A stretch of 23,447 bases of DNA from a virus. The notes below the pieces were generated by a model. The model searched no databases. It saw only the letters and a program-made list of their open reading frames with translations, and was not told where the DNA came from. Made by a program: the position numbers and the translations under genes. How positions within the stretch are numbered: the stretch's first letter is position 1; every line of letters begins with the position of its first letter. Below are positions 4,338 through 19,992 of this stretch, piece by piece. Location of the stretch: the IMG/VR virus record IMGVR_UViG_3300035230_000136, positions 1-23,447 of that record; one strand, written 5' to 3'.

Positions 4338-4541
4338 ATGTTGCTCACTCAAGACGAAATCACTGAACTAACCGGATCAAAACGGTTGAGAACGCAGATT
4401 TTTGTCTTGTCTGAAAATCAAATTGGGTTTATTGTCAGATATGACGGTAAATTGTCAACAACATGGGATGCCGTTAATTCGGCACTCATAAATTCCGAAA
4501 CAGAAAAAGAGCAAGCGCCAAAACTCGATTTTTTATCATGA
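4338..4541 (+). CDS. DUF4224 family protein, possible excision factor, 67 aa
   Basis: The start, MLLTQDEITELTGSKRLRTQ, is the typical beginning of DUF4224 proteins (LLT..EI.ELTG.KR...Q), which are short and usually encoded directly before a phage integrase. The stop overlaps the integrase start (ATGA, 4538-4541). A role as recombination directionality factor has been suggested by such positions but is inference here. The last 17 residues (EKEQAPKLDFLS) are charged and probably disordered. Confidence 0.7.
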   Translation: MLLTQDEITELTGSKRLRTQIFVLSENQIGFIVRYDGKLSTTWDAVNSALINSETEKEQAPKLDFLS

Positions 4542-5479
4542 AAAGACTGCCGACAAGGGTTTATCTTAAGCATAACGCTTATTATTACGTTACCTTGCCG
4601 GACAGAAAATGGATCAGATTGGGCAAATCCGAAGCGGAGATGTACAAGTCACTAGCCAAAATAGCTGACCTTGATTCTGGCAGAGGAACAATGACGGAAT
4701 ACCTCATTCGTTATGAAAATGAAATCATCCCCACCAAAGCTGAAACCACACAAAAAGACAATTTACGCGAACTACTCAACTTAAAACGTGCTTTTGGGCA
4801 TATGAATCCAGAAGCCATTAAGCCAAAACACATTTACGCATACATGGATGCGCGAAAGACTGCAAAAGTTGCCGCAAATCATGAAAAATCACTGTTATCC
4901 CATGTATTTTCATACATGATCCGTTGGGGTATTGTCGAATCCAACCCATGCCGCGAAGTTAAGAAGTTCACCGAAAAGCCGCGCACCAGATACATAGAAG
5001 ATTCGGAATATTTCGCGTTCAGAGATTTTGCGCCACCGATGATTCAAGCCGCAATGGAAGTTGCCGTAATAACTGGTTTACGGCGTGGTGATTTACTGAA
5101 TCTGAAAAGTAGCGACCTAGAAAATGAACGACCCATTGTCACCAGTAAGACCGGTAAAAAAGTCATTTTTGAATTAACACCAGACTTGTTGGCGGCAATC
5201 AAGTTAGCTAAAGCAACCAGAGTGATGCCAAGTATTTATCTCATCACTAACAAGAAAGGTCTACCGTATACGCTCAGTGGATTCTCATCCAATTGGGGTT
5301 TTTATATGAAAAAAGCAATTGATTCTGGGATTTTAGCAGAACGATTTAGATTGCACGACTTGCGCTCTAAAGCCGGATCAGATCACAACCAAGGCGATAG
5401 ATTATTGGGGCATCAAGACCCGAAAACAACCCGGCGGCATTACGAAAGAAAGCCAATTAAAGTCCAACCTATCCGATAA
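4538..5479 (+). CDS. int: Tyrosine-family integrase, 313 aa
   Basis: A tyrosine recombinase with all catalytic positions visible: Arg182 in TGLRRGDLL, Lys204 or 207 in the beta hairpin TSKTGKK, His273 and Arg276 in LHDLRSK, His292 in LLGHQDP and Tyr302 in RRHYERK. The N-terminal part holds an arm-binding domain (about 1-45, with YVTLPDRKWIRLGKSEAE) and a SAM-like core-binding domain (about 52-140). It would catalyse integration and excision between attP and a bacterial attB. The length is normal for a compact phage integrase. It is the last gene of the early operon, coupled to the DUF4224 gene, and stands directly before the repeat-rich region (5480-5693) that should be attP. Confidence 0.92.
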   Translation: MKRLPTRVYLKHNAYYYVTLPDRKWIRLGKSEAEMYKSLAKIADLDSGRGTMTEYLIRYENEIIPTKAETTQKDNLRELLNLKRAFGHMNPEAIKPKHIYAYMDARKTAKVAANHEKSLLSHVFSYMIRWGIVESNPCREVKKFTEKPRTRYIEDSEYFAFRDFAPPMIQAAMEVAVITGLRRGDLLNLKSSDLENERPIVTSKTGKKVIFELTPDLLAAIKLAKATRVMPSIYLITNKKGLPYTLSGFSSNWGFYMKKAIDSGILAERFRLHDLRSKAGSDHNQGDRLLGHQDPKTTRRHYERKPIKVQPIR

Positions 5480-5693: not shown

Positions 5694-6113
5694 TTATCCT
5701 TTCCGCATCAGCATCGCATTATTAGCCGATCTGCTTGGCAATTGTCTGGCATAGGCACTATCTAAAATCTGCGCCGCCGCTTCATTAAAATCACCGATAT
5801 TGACCGCACGAATGGTTTTTTTGAAGCGTTTAAATCGAGTTTTACCCAGATTAAAGCACATATCCATCAAGCATTTTTTCCGGTTATAGCTTAAATCATC
5901 AAACGTCTGGAATATTTCACGCAATTCATCCGCAACAATTTCCAAATCATGCTCAAACATGATATTGGCTTCTTCTTCGGTGATGCCGTTATCTTCAATG
6001 TTTCTGCCATAACCAATCGTCAGCTTTCCGGCAGGACATTCGTAGGGTTTAAGCCGCAACCCCTCGTTGCGTTGGATATATTCCTCAGTAATCATATGGC
6101 ATTCCGGTTTCAT
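5694..6113 (-). CDS. Endolysin, T4-type lysozyme (GH24), 139 aa
   Basis: The catalytic pattern Glu-8aa-Asp/Cys-5aa-Thr is present as E17-x8-C26-x5-T32, inside NEGLRLKPYECPAGKLTIGY, followed by YGRN. The Cys variant of the middle residue is known in this family. The enzyme cleaves the MurNAc-GlcNAc bond of peptidoglycan. No signal peptide or SAR anchor is seen, so it should be a cytoplasmic endolysin that depends on a holin. The start at 6113 makes an ATGA overlap with the lipoprotein gene; a second ATG at 6095 (MITEEYIQ) would give a more typical N-terminus. It is the last gene of the leftward late operon, ending at the attP region. Confidence 0.88.
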   Translation of the reverse strand: MKPECHMITEEYIQRNEGLRLKPYECPAGKLTIGYGRNIEDNGITEEEANIMFEHDLEIVADELREIFQTFDDLSYNRKKCLMDMCFNLGKTRFKRFKKTIRAVNIGDFNEAAAQILDSAYARQLPSRSANNAMLMRKG

Positions 6114-6325
6114 TGCTCAGAGCAGTTAATTTGAATGGAATTTGGTTCAAGTCGACTCGCAACTGCCGTCCGTATCAATTTGCGTTTAGACGCGCTCACA
6201 GAGCAATAACGGTCAACTGCCATAACCGCACCATGTTCAACCATTGCAAGCGTAGAACACGCTGTGAGCAGTGGAATAGCCAACATCACTATTAATGCTA
6301 GGATAAAATATCGTGGAAAACTCAT
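6110..6325 (-). CDS. Small phage lipoprotein, possible spanin-like lysis protein, 71 aa
   Basis: The N-terminus has Arg5, a hydrophobic stretch (7-20) and the lipobox LLTAC with Cys23; Ser24 after it predicts sorting to the outer membrane. The mature part is only 48 residues, with two further cysteines (41 and 68) and a basic helix (SKRKLIRTAVASRL). Position next to the lysozyme and lipidation recall o-spanins (Rz1-type), but it lacks the proline-rich sequence of Rz1 and no clear i-spanin partner is seen. It shares the TAATG junction with the lipase and the ATGA junction with the lysozyme. Confidence 0.7.
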   Translation of the reverse strand: MSFPRYFILALIVMLAIPLLTACSTLAMVEHGAVMAVDRYCSVSASKRKLIRTAVASRLEPNSIQINCSEQ

Positions 6326-7062
6326 TATTCTAACTCCCTTGTTAATCGAACGTAATTGCTAACCGAATGGTCTGCTAATGAATCAATCTTTTTATCTAAA
6401 AACCCCTCAAACATTCCTGACCCGAATTGTTTTAACCGATGCCAGAAACTTGGATTTGTGGTGCAAGTGCCGTCACTGTTGAAGTAGAAAGCGATTCCAG
6501 TGTGTCTATAATTCCAGACTGCCATCGGGTGCCGACAAACAATATCTGAGTTATTTATAAATCGAAAAATGCGCTCCCCATGCTTGAAGTTTAGCACTGC
6601 CGCATAGTCAGAGTTGCCCACTCTTGGTGACCCGAAAGTGTAAAGTTGTGCCGAATAGTCATCGTACCGGGAAAATGCCAAAGTTGCCACCGCCGCTCCT
6701 AGCGAATGTCCGGTGAAGATGACGGTTCTACCCTCCGACAATCTTTCCATATCCTCGCTAATAGCATCCCAAACCATGTCGAGTGACTTTTTAAACCCTC
6801 GATGCACCTTTCCTGCTTCCCCATCGGACTCCACTGGTGTTAGCCTAAATTTCAAGTCGGCTTTAATATCTGAAAAATCGGTGATTTCTGTGCCGCGAAA
6901 AACAAAGATAAGTTCTGTTGCTGTCCAGACGGTATAAAATTGGTTATAAAAAACGGAGTGAAAGTTAAAGCGTCTGTCTGTGTGTAATTTCTGAAACGCT
7001 TTTAGTGGCAAATAAGCACGTTCTGAAAGTTGTGCCATCTCAAAAGCACGATTTTTATCCAT
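6325..7062 (-). CDS. Class 3 lipase (alpha/beta hydrolase), 245 aa
   Basis: A Lipase_3 domain covers most of the protein. The nucleophile elbow GHSLG has Ser120, preceded by VIFTGH; Asp173 in FINNSDIV is the likely acid, and the base is His187 (YRHTGIAFYF) or His232 (ADHSVSNYV). VFRGTE (54-59) and VHRGF (86-90) are family features near the oxyanion side. No signal peptide is visible. ATG at 7062 is chosen over the upstream in-frame start (7104) because GAGG lies 10-13 nt before it and the small upstream gene ends over it. It sits between holin-like proteins and the lysozyme, so membrane (phospho)lipid is a likely substrate. Activity is inferred from family. Confidence 0.85.
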   Translation of the reverse strand: MDKNRAFEMAQLSERAYLPLKAFQKLHTDRRFNFHSVFYNQFYTVWTATELIFVFRGTEITDFSDIKADLKFRLTPVESDGEAGKVHRGFKKSLDMVWDAISEDMERLSEGRTVIFTGHSLGAAVATLAFSRYDDYSAQLYTFGSPRVGNSDYAAVLNFKHGERIFRFINNSDIVCRHPMAVWNYRHTGIAFYFNSDGTCTTNPSFWHRLKQFGSGMFEGFLDKKIDSLADHSVSNYVRLTRELE

Positions 7063-7174
7063 AATAAAATACCTCAAAAATATTTTGTAACACCCAGACT
7101 GCAATAGAACTTCCTAAAATCGCAAGACCGATATAGAAAATCACTTCTACAAAAAACCTCCACCATTCTTTCAA
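7055..7174 (-). CDS. Tiny single-TM protein B, holin-like candidate, 39 aa
   Basis: A TTG start at 7174 opens a frame whose product begins MKEWWRFFVEVIFYIGLAIL and continues GSSIAVWVLQNIFEV, ending in YYG with TAA at 7055-7057. Residues 8-29 are an evident membrane helix, preceded by an aromatic-basic interface (KEWWRF). The TTG overlaps the stop of the small gene before it, and the TAA overlaps the lipase start. No other start is available in this frame. Support is architectural: size, membrane helix and coupled junctions in a lysis cassette. The ribosome site (TTGAG) is weak. Confidence 0.5.
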   Translation of the reverse strand: MKEWWRFFVEVIFYIGLAILGSSIAVWVLQNIFEVFYYG

Positions 7175-7281
7175 CTGAAAATCTCAATCAAAAATAAGTG
7201 CATCACATACCCTAATAAAAACATGGTGTAAGCAATACCTAAAAAAGCTAACAGTATTGGATAGTGATGGGCGAAATACAC
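7171..7281 (-). CDS. Tiny single-TM protein A, holin-like candidate, 36 aa
   Basis: A GTG codon at 7281 directly follows the stop of the XhlA-like gene. The frame encodes MYFAHHYPILLAFLGIAYTM followed by FLLGYVMHLFLIEIFS, hydrophobic over residues 8-35, i.e. one membrane helix, possibly a tight hairpin. The stop TGA (7171-7173) overlaps the TTG start of the next tiny gene. No Shine-Dalgarno is seen, so translation would depend on coupling to the gene upstream. This could be a holin or a holin regulator; I do not recognise a family. Confidence 0.45.
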   Translation of the reverse strand: MYFAHHYPILLAFLGIAYTMFLLGYVMHLFLIEIFS

Positions 7282-7470
7282 TCACAGTTTCAGTGTTTGA
7301 ATAAAACCGATTTCACTTAGAATGAAAAAACCCACAGCACCGTAGCACATAAAAGTAATGCGATTAATCTGCATCAGGATTTGGTCAAATTTTTCTTCTA
7401 GCGCATTAATTCTCCGCTCAAGTTCGGCATCTCTTTTGCCCAATTCTTCACACATCCGCTCATCCATCAT
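7282..7470 (-). CDS. XhlA-like coiled-coil membrane protein, 62 aa
   Basis: ATG at 7470 overlaps the preceding stop (ATGA) and has AGGGATGAA upstream; the frame is open further but this start gives a sensible protein. Residues 5-37 (RMCEELGKRDAELERRINAL, then EEKFDQILMQINR) are a charged coiled coil, and residues 40-60 (FMCYGAVGFFILSEIGFIQT) are one membrane helix. This order (soluble coiled coil, then C-terminal TM) is that of XhlA-type holin-associated proteins. It probably takes part in membrane permeabilisation with the tiny TM proteins downstream. Confidence 0.6.
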   Translation of the reverse strand: MMDERMCEELGKRDAELERRINALEEKFDQILMQINRITFMCYGAVGFFILSEIGFIQTLKL

Positions 7471-7910
7471 TTCATCCCTATGATAAGTTTTAATCCGCCA
7501 AACAGTGACCCTGCAAGGATCAGAAATGCTGCGACCCAAGCAACACAGGTCATAATGAAATCTGTTCGTTCTGCTTTTTGCCGATCTTCATCCCGTTGAG
7601 CCTTGAGCCTTGCTTTCTGTTGTTGTCCTTCGAACCGGAGGAAGTCGTCCCACATGAGATGGCGAGTTCGTATCATTAGTTCTTTAAGTTGTTCTCGCTT
7701 ATTTCGCATAGCTTCTTGAGCCATGAATATTTCTAAATCAGATTCCTGATCCGAACCTTTCTTAGCGAGTTTCGCCTTGTGTTCTATTTCTCTACCGGCA
7801 TCGGAGAACTTAGACAAATGGTCGCCCAGTTCCCAGACCTCCTTACCATTAGACACCGCAGTCCTGATGACTTCAAATGCGGCGTTGGCTATGGCGAGTT
7901 CAGCTAGCAT
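7467..7910 (-). CDS. Phage membrane protein with C-terminal TM helix, 147 aa
   Basis: The N-terminal segment MLAELAIANAAFEVIRTAVS is followed by NGKEVWELGDHLSKF; then comes a long charged helix (about 60-116, rich in Lys, Glu, Gln and Arg) and one membrane helix (117-144: FIMTCVAWVAAFLILAGSLF). Proteins with this beginning and a single C-terminal TM are familiar from marine phage genomes, near tail fibre and lysis genes, but have no firm function to my knowledge. Its start overlaps the previous gene by 11 bases and its stop overlaps the XhlA-like gene. It may belong to the lysis cassette. Confidence 0.65.
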   Translation of the reverse strand: MLAELAIANAAFEVIRTAVSNGKEVWELGDHLSKFSDAGREIEHKAKLAKKGSDQESDLEIFMAQEAMRNKREQLKELMIRTRHLMWDDFLRFEGQQQKARLKAQRDEDRQKAERTDFIMTCVAWVAAFLILAGSLFGGLKLIIGMK

Positions 7911-17186: not shown

Positions 17187-19378
17187 GACGAAGCAACCTT
17201 GTCGGTGTTTGACTCAATCTCGTCAAGTCGAATCCACTCTCCGGTGCTACGACTCCGATATTCAAATTCAGCGTAATCAGCAAACGGCTCGTTGGTTTCC
17301 CAAGTCACTGTCGCTTTTGTGACAAGCGTGTCGTCAGGGGCAATATTATCCAGAGATTGTGGAGCGTATGTGATTTCCTCGTTGCTAACCATGTCAGTTG
17401 GTGGCAAACAAGTATCGTGCTTTGGTAGGTTCGTGTCTGACTTGGATTCGGTATGTAAATTCAGTTCAGAGACATCATACACCGATTCCTCATACTCTCG
17501 ACAGCCGATTAAGATTTCATCATTCGGTTGCAATGACATTTTTAATATCCGAAACGGTTTAGCATCCCATCCCGGTGTTGGATGTGTGATGTTTATCACA
17601 TCGCCAACTTCGACCACCATACCAATAATGGTTGCTGTAAATTCCGCATAAATTTGTTGTCGTGACTGCTTGAGATTAGCAAGGGCAATCTGTTGTGCTG
17701 TTGCCGCATCACTTGTAAATGGCAGTTTCAAATCGGCTTGCAGAACTAAATTATTATCAGCATCTTTTCGCAACTCCTTGCTCTCGACAACAATCTGATC
17801 GTCCTGCCAAGTTTCGGCTTGGTTGAAAAATCTTGCTCTGACAGAATTGAATGTATTCGATTTATCGCCCAGAGAAATATTCCATGAACCGGTAATGTTA
17901 TCCGATGACGCTGTGCCAGTAACAGACGTTGGTTTGTCGATGACGAGTCGATATTTGCCACCAGAAAAGACCATAATCCCACGGCAACTGGTAAGCAAGT
18001 CACCCAGAATGCTCATCGCTTTTTTATCTACATCTACCACGCCGTTGCAGGTATATCGTTTAGCCGCTAGGTCTTGTCCTTGAAACAATATATCAAGACT
18101 AGCACCTCTATCACCGCTCATAGCCAAGTCTGGATTGGTGACCACTTTGATGCTCGTCAACGCGATAGGGTCATTCAGCGTAATAGTAACCGTTGCGCCC
18201 CTGTGACTTCGATTCCCTAACCAATAGCTATCTGATGCGGATATTTCTCCACCGGGCAATCCGTGTGATGTTGCCAACAATGTCGGGTCAAGAATATTAC
18301 CGACAGCAAATCTATCGTCAAGGGTTTCAGATGCTTCAATCGTTACGCCGTTGCTGTAACTTGCCTTAGTTGATGACTGATCTATTCTGTCACCCACATC
18401 AAACTCAACACCATCAACCAATAAACGCAATGCCCCGAATGCAGGATGTGTCTCTGTAGCGTTAACCGTGATGATGATTTTTTTCACACCGCTAAATGTT
18501 GCCGGAACATCGCTCGTCACCGTGTATTCTTCTTGAGTCGCAACGCCTGTCTGATATGGCACTGACAGTGTTGCTATGTCCTGCATCTCGGCATCGCTTG
18601 TACCTTTAGTGACCAATTCATCACAATAATCTGCCGCAACGATAATCGCCGCATCATCTATGTGAACTTCGTCAATGCCACGACCATAAACGTCATTAGT
18701 CAGATAATCTCTAATGCAAAGCGCCGGATTATCGCTCCACGCAATAACGTCAGTTCTTGGGTCTTTGACTTTCACACCTTTCACATCGAACGTGAATGTT
18801 GGGATGCCGGAATACCAAACCTTTGTGTCATGATATAAGCGAACGTAGATATATGCCACTCCACTCAATTTGTGGTTTGCAGTCCACTGATCCGGTAATC
18901 GCTCAATCAGTTTTTCATCGGCAACCTGATCCCATGCGCCAAGATGTTCGTTGAATTCGACAACCGGAACACCTCCATGAGTCACTTCAAATCTGTCGTT
19001 TATCACTCCATCAACTTCATACTGAACATCATTGATCCAAATCTTGTCAAACGATTCAATTTCACCCTCTGCAATCGCCAGAACCATGTGTAGTTCTCTA
19101 TGTTTCTTGGCACTTGACCCCACGAATACCCTAGTTGCTCCAACCCTACGCTCACCATAAATCACTTTTATTGGAGCAAGCGCAGACGCTTTGTTTGCAA
19201 GCATACCTTGACCGTCCATGCTCGGAACATCTTCACCGGTGAGTGCTTGCATGATGGTGCCAATTGCCATCGAGATTCCGATGTTTATCACTGCCGCCGC
19301 AAACGCAATCGTTCCGGCACTAAGCCCTGTGACTCCGACTGCCGCGAAAAGCGCTGTTACTCCTGCCGCGCCTGCCAT
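17183..19378 (-). CDS. Tail tip (J-like host specificity) protein, N-terminal half, 731 aa
   Basis: After a hydrophobic start (residues 1-45, ALFAAVGVTGLSAGTIAFAA) comes the J-family core: KVIYGERRVGATRVFVGSSA, HMVLAIAEGEIESFDKIWIN, FTFDVKGVKVKDPRTDVIAW and SDNPALCIRDYLTNDVYGRG. The central part (about 450-640) matches the phage tail-protein 3 region (DLLTSCRGIMVFSGGKYRLV; GMVVEVGDVINITHPTPGWD). It ends within an FN3 domain (TKATVTWETNEPFADYAEFE, YRSRSTGEWIRL). This protein closes the distal tail tip and contacts the host receptor with the next gene product. The TAATG junction couples it to the DUF5131-like gene before it. Confidence 0.85.
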   Translation of the reverse strand: MAGAAGVTALFAAVGVTGLSAGTIAFAAAVINIGISMAIGTIMQALTGEDVPSMDGQGMLANKASALAPIKVIYGERRVGATRVFVGSSAKKHRELHMVLAIAEGEIESFDKIWINDVQYEVDGVINDRFEVTHGGVPVVEFNEHLGAWDQVADEKLIERLPDQWTANHKLSGVAYIYVRLYHDTKVWYSGIPTFTFDVKGVKVKDPRTDVIAWSDNPALCIRDYLTNDVYGRGIDEVHIDDAAIIVAADYCDELVTKGTSDAEMQDIATLSVPYQTGVATQEEYTVTSDVPATFSGVKKIIITVNATETHPAFGALRLLVDGVEFDVGDRIDQSSTKASYSNGVTIEASETLDDRFAVGNILDPTLLATSHGLPGGEISASDSYWLGNRSHRGATVTITLNDPIALTSIKVVTNPDLAMSGDRGASLDILFQGQDLAAKRYTCNGVVDVDKKAMSILGDLLTSCRGIMVFSGGKYRLVIDKPTSVTGTASSDNITGSWNISLGDKSNTFNSVRARFFNQAETWQDDQIVVESKELRKDADNNLVLQADLKLPFTSDAATAQQIALANLKQSRQQIYAEFTATIIGMVVEVGDVINITHPTPGWDAKPFRILKMSLQPNDEILIGCREYEESVYDVSELNLHTESKSDTNLPKHDTCLPPTDMVSNEEITYAPQSLDNIAPDDTLVTKATVTWETNEPFADYAEFEYRSRSTGEWIRLDEIESNTDKVASS

Positions 19379-19992
19379 TAATTAGCGCCCCACAAATGGC
19401 TATGATTAATCGTAAACGCAACGTCTTGTGAACGACATTTATCGGCTAGATTCTCCGCCCACTCTTGTTTGAATGGTCGGCGTAATCCCCACGCTTCTTT
19501 TGATGCGGCAACGTGATTGATGCCGCTCAAGTCAACGTCACCAAACTCGCCCAACAATGGCACTGCCGAAACAAATCTCTGTTGAGCAGGAATCTTTTGT
19601 AAAAAACCAATCCGCCAATCGCATTCCCCCGATTCAGCAACAACACCCATCGCAATATTATCTGACCACTCAAATTGATCCGCCATGACTACCGCTCTCT
19701 CGATGCGTTTAGTCAATATTTCGTATCCGTGTTGCGGCGTGTCGTTCATGACTTTGAAAACACTCTTGATATAATCTAGCGGCACTGACTCATGAAATAA
19801 ATCACTGCCAAATGCAACCGAAAATACTTTAGGGGCAGAAATGGTTGTCGGTATAGCTAACTGGTCTGGGCAAAGTTGAACCGAGTAATCTTCGCCGGTT
19901 CTCACAGAGTGCAAATAAGATGGGCAAGAATCGCATCCACCCGAAATTCTTTCGCATCCCTTGGTGACTTGCCACGTTATCCAGTTTTCCAA
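19378..19992 (-). CDS. DUF5131 (Gp37/Gp68-like) protein with Cys motif, 204 aa
   Basis: The start, WITWQVTKGCERISGGCDSC, has C13-x6-C20-x2-C23, the Gp37/Gp68 (DUF5131) signature, followed by matching blocks: VFSVAFGSDLFHESVP, YEILTKRIERA, NIAMGVVAESGECDWRIGFL, IPAQQRFVSAVPLLGEFG, and a late AFTINHSHLWG. The fold is thought to be a TIM-barrel relative; the Cys cluster may bind Fe-S or zinc, but the usual aromatic residue after the third Cys is Pro here. Length is at the short end of the family. Function unknown. Oddly, it lies within the tail tip operon and overlaps both neighbours. Confidence 0.75.
   Translation of the reverse strand: MENWITWQVTKGCERISGGCDSCPSYLHSVRTGEDYSVQLCPDQLAIPTTISAPKVFSVAFGSDLFHESVPLDYIKSVFKVMNDTPQHGYEILTKRIERAVVMADQFEWSDNIAMGVVAESGECDWRIGFLQKIPAQQRFVSAVPLLGEFGDVDLSGINHVAASKEAWGLRRPFKQEWAENLADKCRSQDVAFTINHSHLWGAN

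Follow-up and report, generated by a model that had tools for sequence, protein, structure and literature searches.

A class-3 lipase and a small lipoprotein are encoded side by side within the lysis operon of a marine phage; sister cassettes have an enzyme of the DUF1353 family in place of the lipase but keep the lipoprotein. We consider it probable that the lipase is a lysis-phase phospholipase, which would leave through the holin and, with the lipoprotein as partner, attack phospholipids of the envelope. The DNA analysed (the window) is a 23,447-base virus contig from IMG/VR that may be incomplete.

A lipase within the lysis operon

Seven tightly overlapping genes on the minus strand (5694-7910) constitute the lysis operon of the window and encode four single-TM proteins, the class-3 lipase, a 71-aa lipoprotein and a GH24 endolysin. 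Tail-fibre-like genes lie directly upstream of the cassette, and an integrase gene (4538-5479) is convergent with it, beyond its end at 5694. Among the tail genes, a 204-aa protein (19378-19992, minus strand) matches phrog_2045 (E 6e-38).

The first cassette gene (7467-7910) encodes tm147, which is 147 aa long, has a predicted TM at its C-terminus and received no Pfam assignment. It is followed by a 61-aa protein with a coiled-coil-like N-terminus and a C-terminal TM (7282-7467), a 36-aa single-TM protein with a GTG start that is a holin candidate (7171-7281), and a 39-aa single-TM protein with a TTG start (7055-7174). No holin family could be assigned to the window TM proteins, homologues of the 61-aa protein weakly resemble XhlA ‘hemolysin’ PHROGs, and a PF05106 holin was found in a single relative, L183. 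The lipase (6325-7062, 245 aa from its ATG) starts inside the 3' end of the 39-aa TM open reading frame, with which it shares 8 bp. Its junction with the lipoprotein gene (6110-6325) is TAATG, and that of the lipoprotein with the lysozyme gene (5694-6113) is ATGA. The lysozyme is an endolysin by its PF00959 match (5.4e-17) and has no visible SAR or signal sequence; the lipase also lacks a signal peptide. The translational coupling of the lipase between TM and lipoprotein/lysozyme genes, proposed in an earlier note on this DNA, is as close as described there or closer, and the operon is longer than the note had it, as the 147-aa membrane protein also belongs to it.

The lipase gene is the only one in the whole record to match Pfam Lipase_3 (PF01764; E=9.3e-27, 94.1 bits, cut-off 22). 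Ser120 (in GHSLG), Asp173 and His232 (in DHSVSNY) form an intact catalytic triad that is invariant across ten relatives; the earlier note had likewise read a complete Lipase_3 enzyme with GHSLG and, as likely residues, Asp173 and a histidine. In profile searches of the PDB, the best match is the Thermomyces lipase 1dt3 (2e-19), with the serine and aspartate aligned to its catalytic region, and the modelled fold, itself of low confidence, matches class-3 lipases (Foldseek prob 1.00). The lipase family is under purifying selection, with dN/dS of ~0.05-0.15. A LysB-type, cutinase-like mycolylarabinogalactan esterase is not indicated, as the match to the Cutinase Pfam profile, a general rather than a LysB-specific one, scores 12.5 bits, below the cut-off of 25.9. 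Triglycerides and feruloyl esters are also among the substrates of Lipase_3 enzymes; here the substrate would be phospholipids.

Conservation of the cassette and replacement of the lipase

Scans with the lipase identified relatives with lipases that are 55-96% identical. The order TM–TM–TM–TM–lipase–lipoprotein is kept in independent contigs wherever the flanks are present. The gene after the lipoprotein encodes GH24 in the window, L003-L005 and L008, and peptidase M15 in L006, L007 and L012, and no endolysin adjoins the lipase–lipoprotein pair in L013 and L015. Given that the endolysin varies beside a constant order, the lipase–lipoprotein block is stable, with endolysins exchanged around it. 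The conserved lipase–lipoprotein–lysozyme order that the earlier note had asked to be checked in relatives thus holds for its first two members, but not for the position of the lysozyme (GH24, M15 or none adjacent). In two of these contigs, a small acidic open reading frame separates the lipase from the 39-aa TM protein (L003:5811-6008 and L005:5111-5308). In some large T4-like phages the lipoprotein-lipase pair is distant from recognised lysis genes. In seven large marine phages, one contig carries both tm147 and the lipoprotein-lipase pair at non-adjacent sites (L030/L053, L031/L054, L033/L055, L038/L085, L039/L098, L041/L089 and L043/L075), and this co-occurrence suggests a functional link between them.

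Sister cassettes without the lipase were found by scanning with the 147-aa protein. In L018, L020, L026, L028 and L029, the lipase slot is occupied by a 122-123-aa protein that matches PF07087 (DUF1353; E 1e-15 to 1e-17), followed by a lipoprotein of the same family as in the window. Scans with the DUF1353 proteins yielded 17 close loci; the lipoprotein is directly downstream in every one, and in most an M15 endolysin comes after it. The function of DUF1353 was unknown until work on its member TtaP, for which phospholipase A2 activity was established biochemically, with catalytic His70, Asp71 and Asp85 and loss of activity in the D85A variant (PMC11525133). H68, D69 and D87, which correspond to the His-Asp pair and the downstream Asp of TtaP, are invariant in the 17 sequences, so the replacing enzyme is of the DUF1353/TtaP type by both profile and residues. 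Lipase_3 and DUF1353 are unrelated families with unrelated folds. The best PDB matches of the DUF1353 profile are phospholipases A2 (8k1w and 7ygk), at a weak E of 0.07, and a Foldseek search with the DUF1353 model for a fold link to phospholipase A2 returned nothing significant and no phospholipase A2.

The DUF1353 proteins at L018:5741-6109 and L183:3143-3487 match phrog_1158, which is labelled ‘tail assembly chaperone’, and this label has been copied into many phage annotations. Because TtaP has phospholipase A2 activity, the label is probably wrong. In two more distant phages (L141:3836-4294 and L143:3842-4300), a GH24 endolysin is directly preceded by a DUF1353 protein whose own N-terminus resembles a lipobox, a layout that looks as if phospholipase and lipoprotein anchor had been fused in one protein. 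Elsewhere (L128:3420-3698, L138:3499-3783 and L140:3416-3688), the 147-aa protein is replaced by one of 90-94 aa with an N-terminal TM and a helical tail.

A lipoprotein shared by two enzyme families

The lipoprotein has a lipobox (LTAC↓S, with a conserved Cys23), as an o-spanin would. Its mature part is ~49 residues long, is not proline-rich and contains two conserved cysteines besides the lipidated one (Y40-C41 ... C68). The second hydrophobic segment (C-terminal TM) of a unimolecular spanin is absent from the 71 residues.

All 36 distinct lipoprotein genes touch a same-strand phospholipase gene, which encodes Lipase_3 in 21 cases, DUF1353 in 15 and both in none, and the pairs lie beside GH24, M15 or GH108 endolysins. 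As many of these loci were retrieved via enzyme queries, a scan with the lipoprotein only is the fairer test of pairing. It yielded 20 loci, of which 19 could be assessed (one contig starts inside the gene), and a phospholipase is present in 19/19. Found with the lipoprotein query only were lipoprotein–divergent Lipase_3–GH24 (L179), M15–lipoprotein–DUF1353 (L182), and, in L183, a lambda-S-type holin (Phage_holin_3_1)–GH108 endolysin–lipoprotein–DUF1353 series in which all genes overlap and the last two occupy the Rz/Rz1 position after holin and endolysin. Each enzyme family is found in either gene order, a pattern that favours selection over the inheritance of a single arrangement. The 19 lipoprotein sequences are too divergent for one usable scanning profile. 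Among cultured phages, Caulobacter phage DMCA has the order M15–lipoprotein–DUF1353 and Nitratiruptor phage NrS-3 the order DUF1353–lipoprotein–TM protein–lysozyme; the lipoproteins beside DUF1353 in these two are unrelated to the family described here, of which tblastn found no homologue in named phages.

The earlier note had left open whether the lipoprotein is a partner or an inhibitor of the lipase. Because one lipoprotein family accompanies two unrelated enzyme folds, the first is favoured: judging from these sequences, it may be a general partner, for example an outer-membrane tether, rather than an enzyme-specific inhibitor.

No match to the Rz family (PF03245) was found in 25 whole contigs. 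A feature-based search for spanin pairs, which recovered those of lambda and T7 but missed that of P2, covered the window and eight longer, possibly incomplete related contigs (32.5, 35.6, 37.8, 38.7, 44.2, 55.3, 61.0 and 62.2 kb) and turned up no credible pair; its few matches were rejected as spurious shadow or antisense frames. Nor does the lipoprotein gene, in the window or the eight contigs, have a linked i-spanin gene whose product has an N-terminal TM and a coiled coil in the periplasm, and a two-component spanin is thus not indicated. The impression that the window has no clear i-spanin was confirmed, and the predicted absence of Rz/Rz1 holds for the related contigs covered by these searches.

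Proposed mode of action and wider meaning

So, how might the cassette work? Late in infection, the small TM proteins, whose holin function is presumed, would open the inner membrane, allowing the signal-less lipase and lysozyme to leave the cytoplasm. The lysozyme would then cut peptidoglycan, and the lipase would hydrolyse envelope phospholipids, most likely those of the outer membrane on its exposed inner leaflet. The small outer-membrane lipoprotein may help as a tether, receptor or local destabiliser, and the enzyme may be needed for lysis. No relatives of the cassette were found in genome contigs searched for a host; a diderm host envelope is presumed from the lipoprotein and from the marine proteobacterial phage relatives of the tail genes. 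The suggestion of the earlier note, that a lipase acts on the membrane with the lipoprotein in lysis, is well supported by comparative genomics, namely the conserved order, the in-situ DUF1353 replacement, the invariable adjacency and the lack of a recognisable spanin in long relatives. A general replacement of spanins, however, is not indicated. In Escherichia phage Bas80, DUF1353 shares one cluster with an endolysin, a holin and an annotated Rz-like spanin, and in several marine T4-like phages related lipases lie near classical spanin-like pairs (L056, L061, L087, L093, L100 and L110). A survey of 677 Gram-negative phages counted 91 (~13%) with no identifiable spanin (PMC6139136). Of 11 catalogued spanin-less phages that were tested, Lu11 has DUF1353 and P-SSM2 has Lipase_3; both enzymes are absent from the other 9 (0/9), and phospholipases as the general answer for spanin-less phages were rejected. 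Together, the coexistence with spanins and the nine enzyme-less phages indicate a recurrent lysis-associated component, not a universal spanin replacement.

The same observations could mean that the lipase is an accessory helper, expressed with the lysis genes, whose only effect is faster virion release or the breakdown of membrane debris and vesicles, with the outer membrane opened by an unrecognised spanin or disruptin. We regard this as unlikely, although it deserves serious consideration given the Bas80 and T4-like loci and the spanin-less phages that carry neither enzyme; the searches of the window and eight long relatives, which revealed no spanin pair, the strict lipoprotein-phospholipase pairing and the Rz/Rz1 slot taken by the pair in L183 argue against it. 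It is much more doubtful that the lipoprotein is o-spanin-like and the enzyme incidental, with the i-spanin being tm147 or the 92-aa N-terminal TM protein of other cassettes. Such a reading would explain why the lipoprotein accompanies both enzymes, and it draws on the 90-94-aa proteins with an N-terminal TM and a helical tail in L128, L132, L138 and L140, as well as on a weak match of the L183 lipoprotein to an Rz-like spanin PHROG (E 0.05). However, the window TM proteins are C-terminally anchored or shorter than 40 aa, too short for the periplasm, the mature lipoprotein is short and not rich in proline, and the enzyme is never missing (36/36).

Strict gene pairing would also be expected if the lipoprotein acted as an inhibitor of the immunity type and held the lipase in check until lysis, as happens with type VI lipase effectors, and lipid-cutting enzymes do require control. 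This seems improbable, as a fold-specific inhibitor is unlikely to be shared by two unrelated folds and the cytoplasm already retains a signal-less enzyme. An enzyme for entry or extracellular action, or a lysogenic-conversion gene, is very unlikely. A virion-borne lipase would fit the tail genes just upstream, and degradation of surface polymers after release would fit the extracellular-polymer role proposed for released phage lipases (phiNIT1 PghP, as cited in PMC12173070). Yet the lipase is translationally coupled inside the lysis operon, has no tail-associated domain by Pfam, and is replaced by a member of a phospholipase A2 family, not by a polymer-degrading enzyme. The reading as a lysis-phase phospholipase with a lipoprotein partner is the one that we carry forward.

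Compared with Rz/Rz1 spanins, the pair likewise consists of overlapping last genes of a holin-endolysin cassette and includes a small outer-membrane lipoprotein, but there is no i-spanin, the partner is a soluble hydrolase, and the membrane-fusion architecture is absent. The Aeromonas hydrophila lipase is presumably of the SGNH type. A homologue of it with a carbohydrate-binding domain is encoded beside a holin and an endolysin in a phage of Pseudomonas syringae pv. actinidiae, and a lysis role has been proposed for it (PMC12173070, available part). This is again a lipase with holin and endolysin in a Gram-negative phage, but it is neither Lipase_3 nor DUF1353, and that part of the report describes no conserved lipoprotein pairing. 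A precedent for a lipolytic lysis enzyme is LysB, the mycolylarabinogalactan esterase in the lytic cassette of mycobacteriophages (PMC5707550). Like the lipase, it is an alpha/beta-hydrolase esterase directed at the outermost envelope layer; unlike it, LysB belongs to another family, has another substrate, acts on a mycobacterial envelope and has no lipoprotein partner. The phiKT disruptin also achieves non-spanin outer-membrane disruption in lysis, but is a short cationic peptide rather than an enzyme (PMC12819732). TtaP, of the same family as the enzymes that replace the lipase, is encoded in a bacterial genetic islet that also has the phage-type muramidase TtsA; according to the portion of the report at hand, its deletion has no envelope phenotype and a lysis role is not proposed (PMC11525133).

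The literature searched yielded no previous description of a lysis module that joins a lipoprotein with interchangeable phospholipases. The way in which spanin-less phages breach the outer membrane is an unsettled question in the field (PMC6139136, PMC12819732). At the level of gene content, the exchange of the enzyme with retention of the lipoprotein suggests a so far undescribed way of breaking the bacterial outer membrane. We tentatively propose, as quite possible though short of probable, a route to outer-membrane opening that would be the third, next to those of spanins and disruptins. In it, a phospholipase would be paired with a lipoprotein that takes it to the outer membrane, and class-3 lipase and DUF1353 phospholipase A2 could stand in for each other. 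If this is true, TtaP next to TtsA would be what is left of such a cassette after its capture. Since the alternative enzyme comes from a family with a proven phospholipase A2, the enzyme–lipoprotein pair makes one answer to spanin-less lysis open to direct test. The pair also points to a function for the widespread family labelled by PHROGs as a tail assembly chaperone, and may provide a context for the puzzling phospholipase TtaP.
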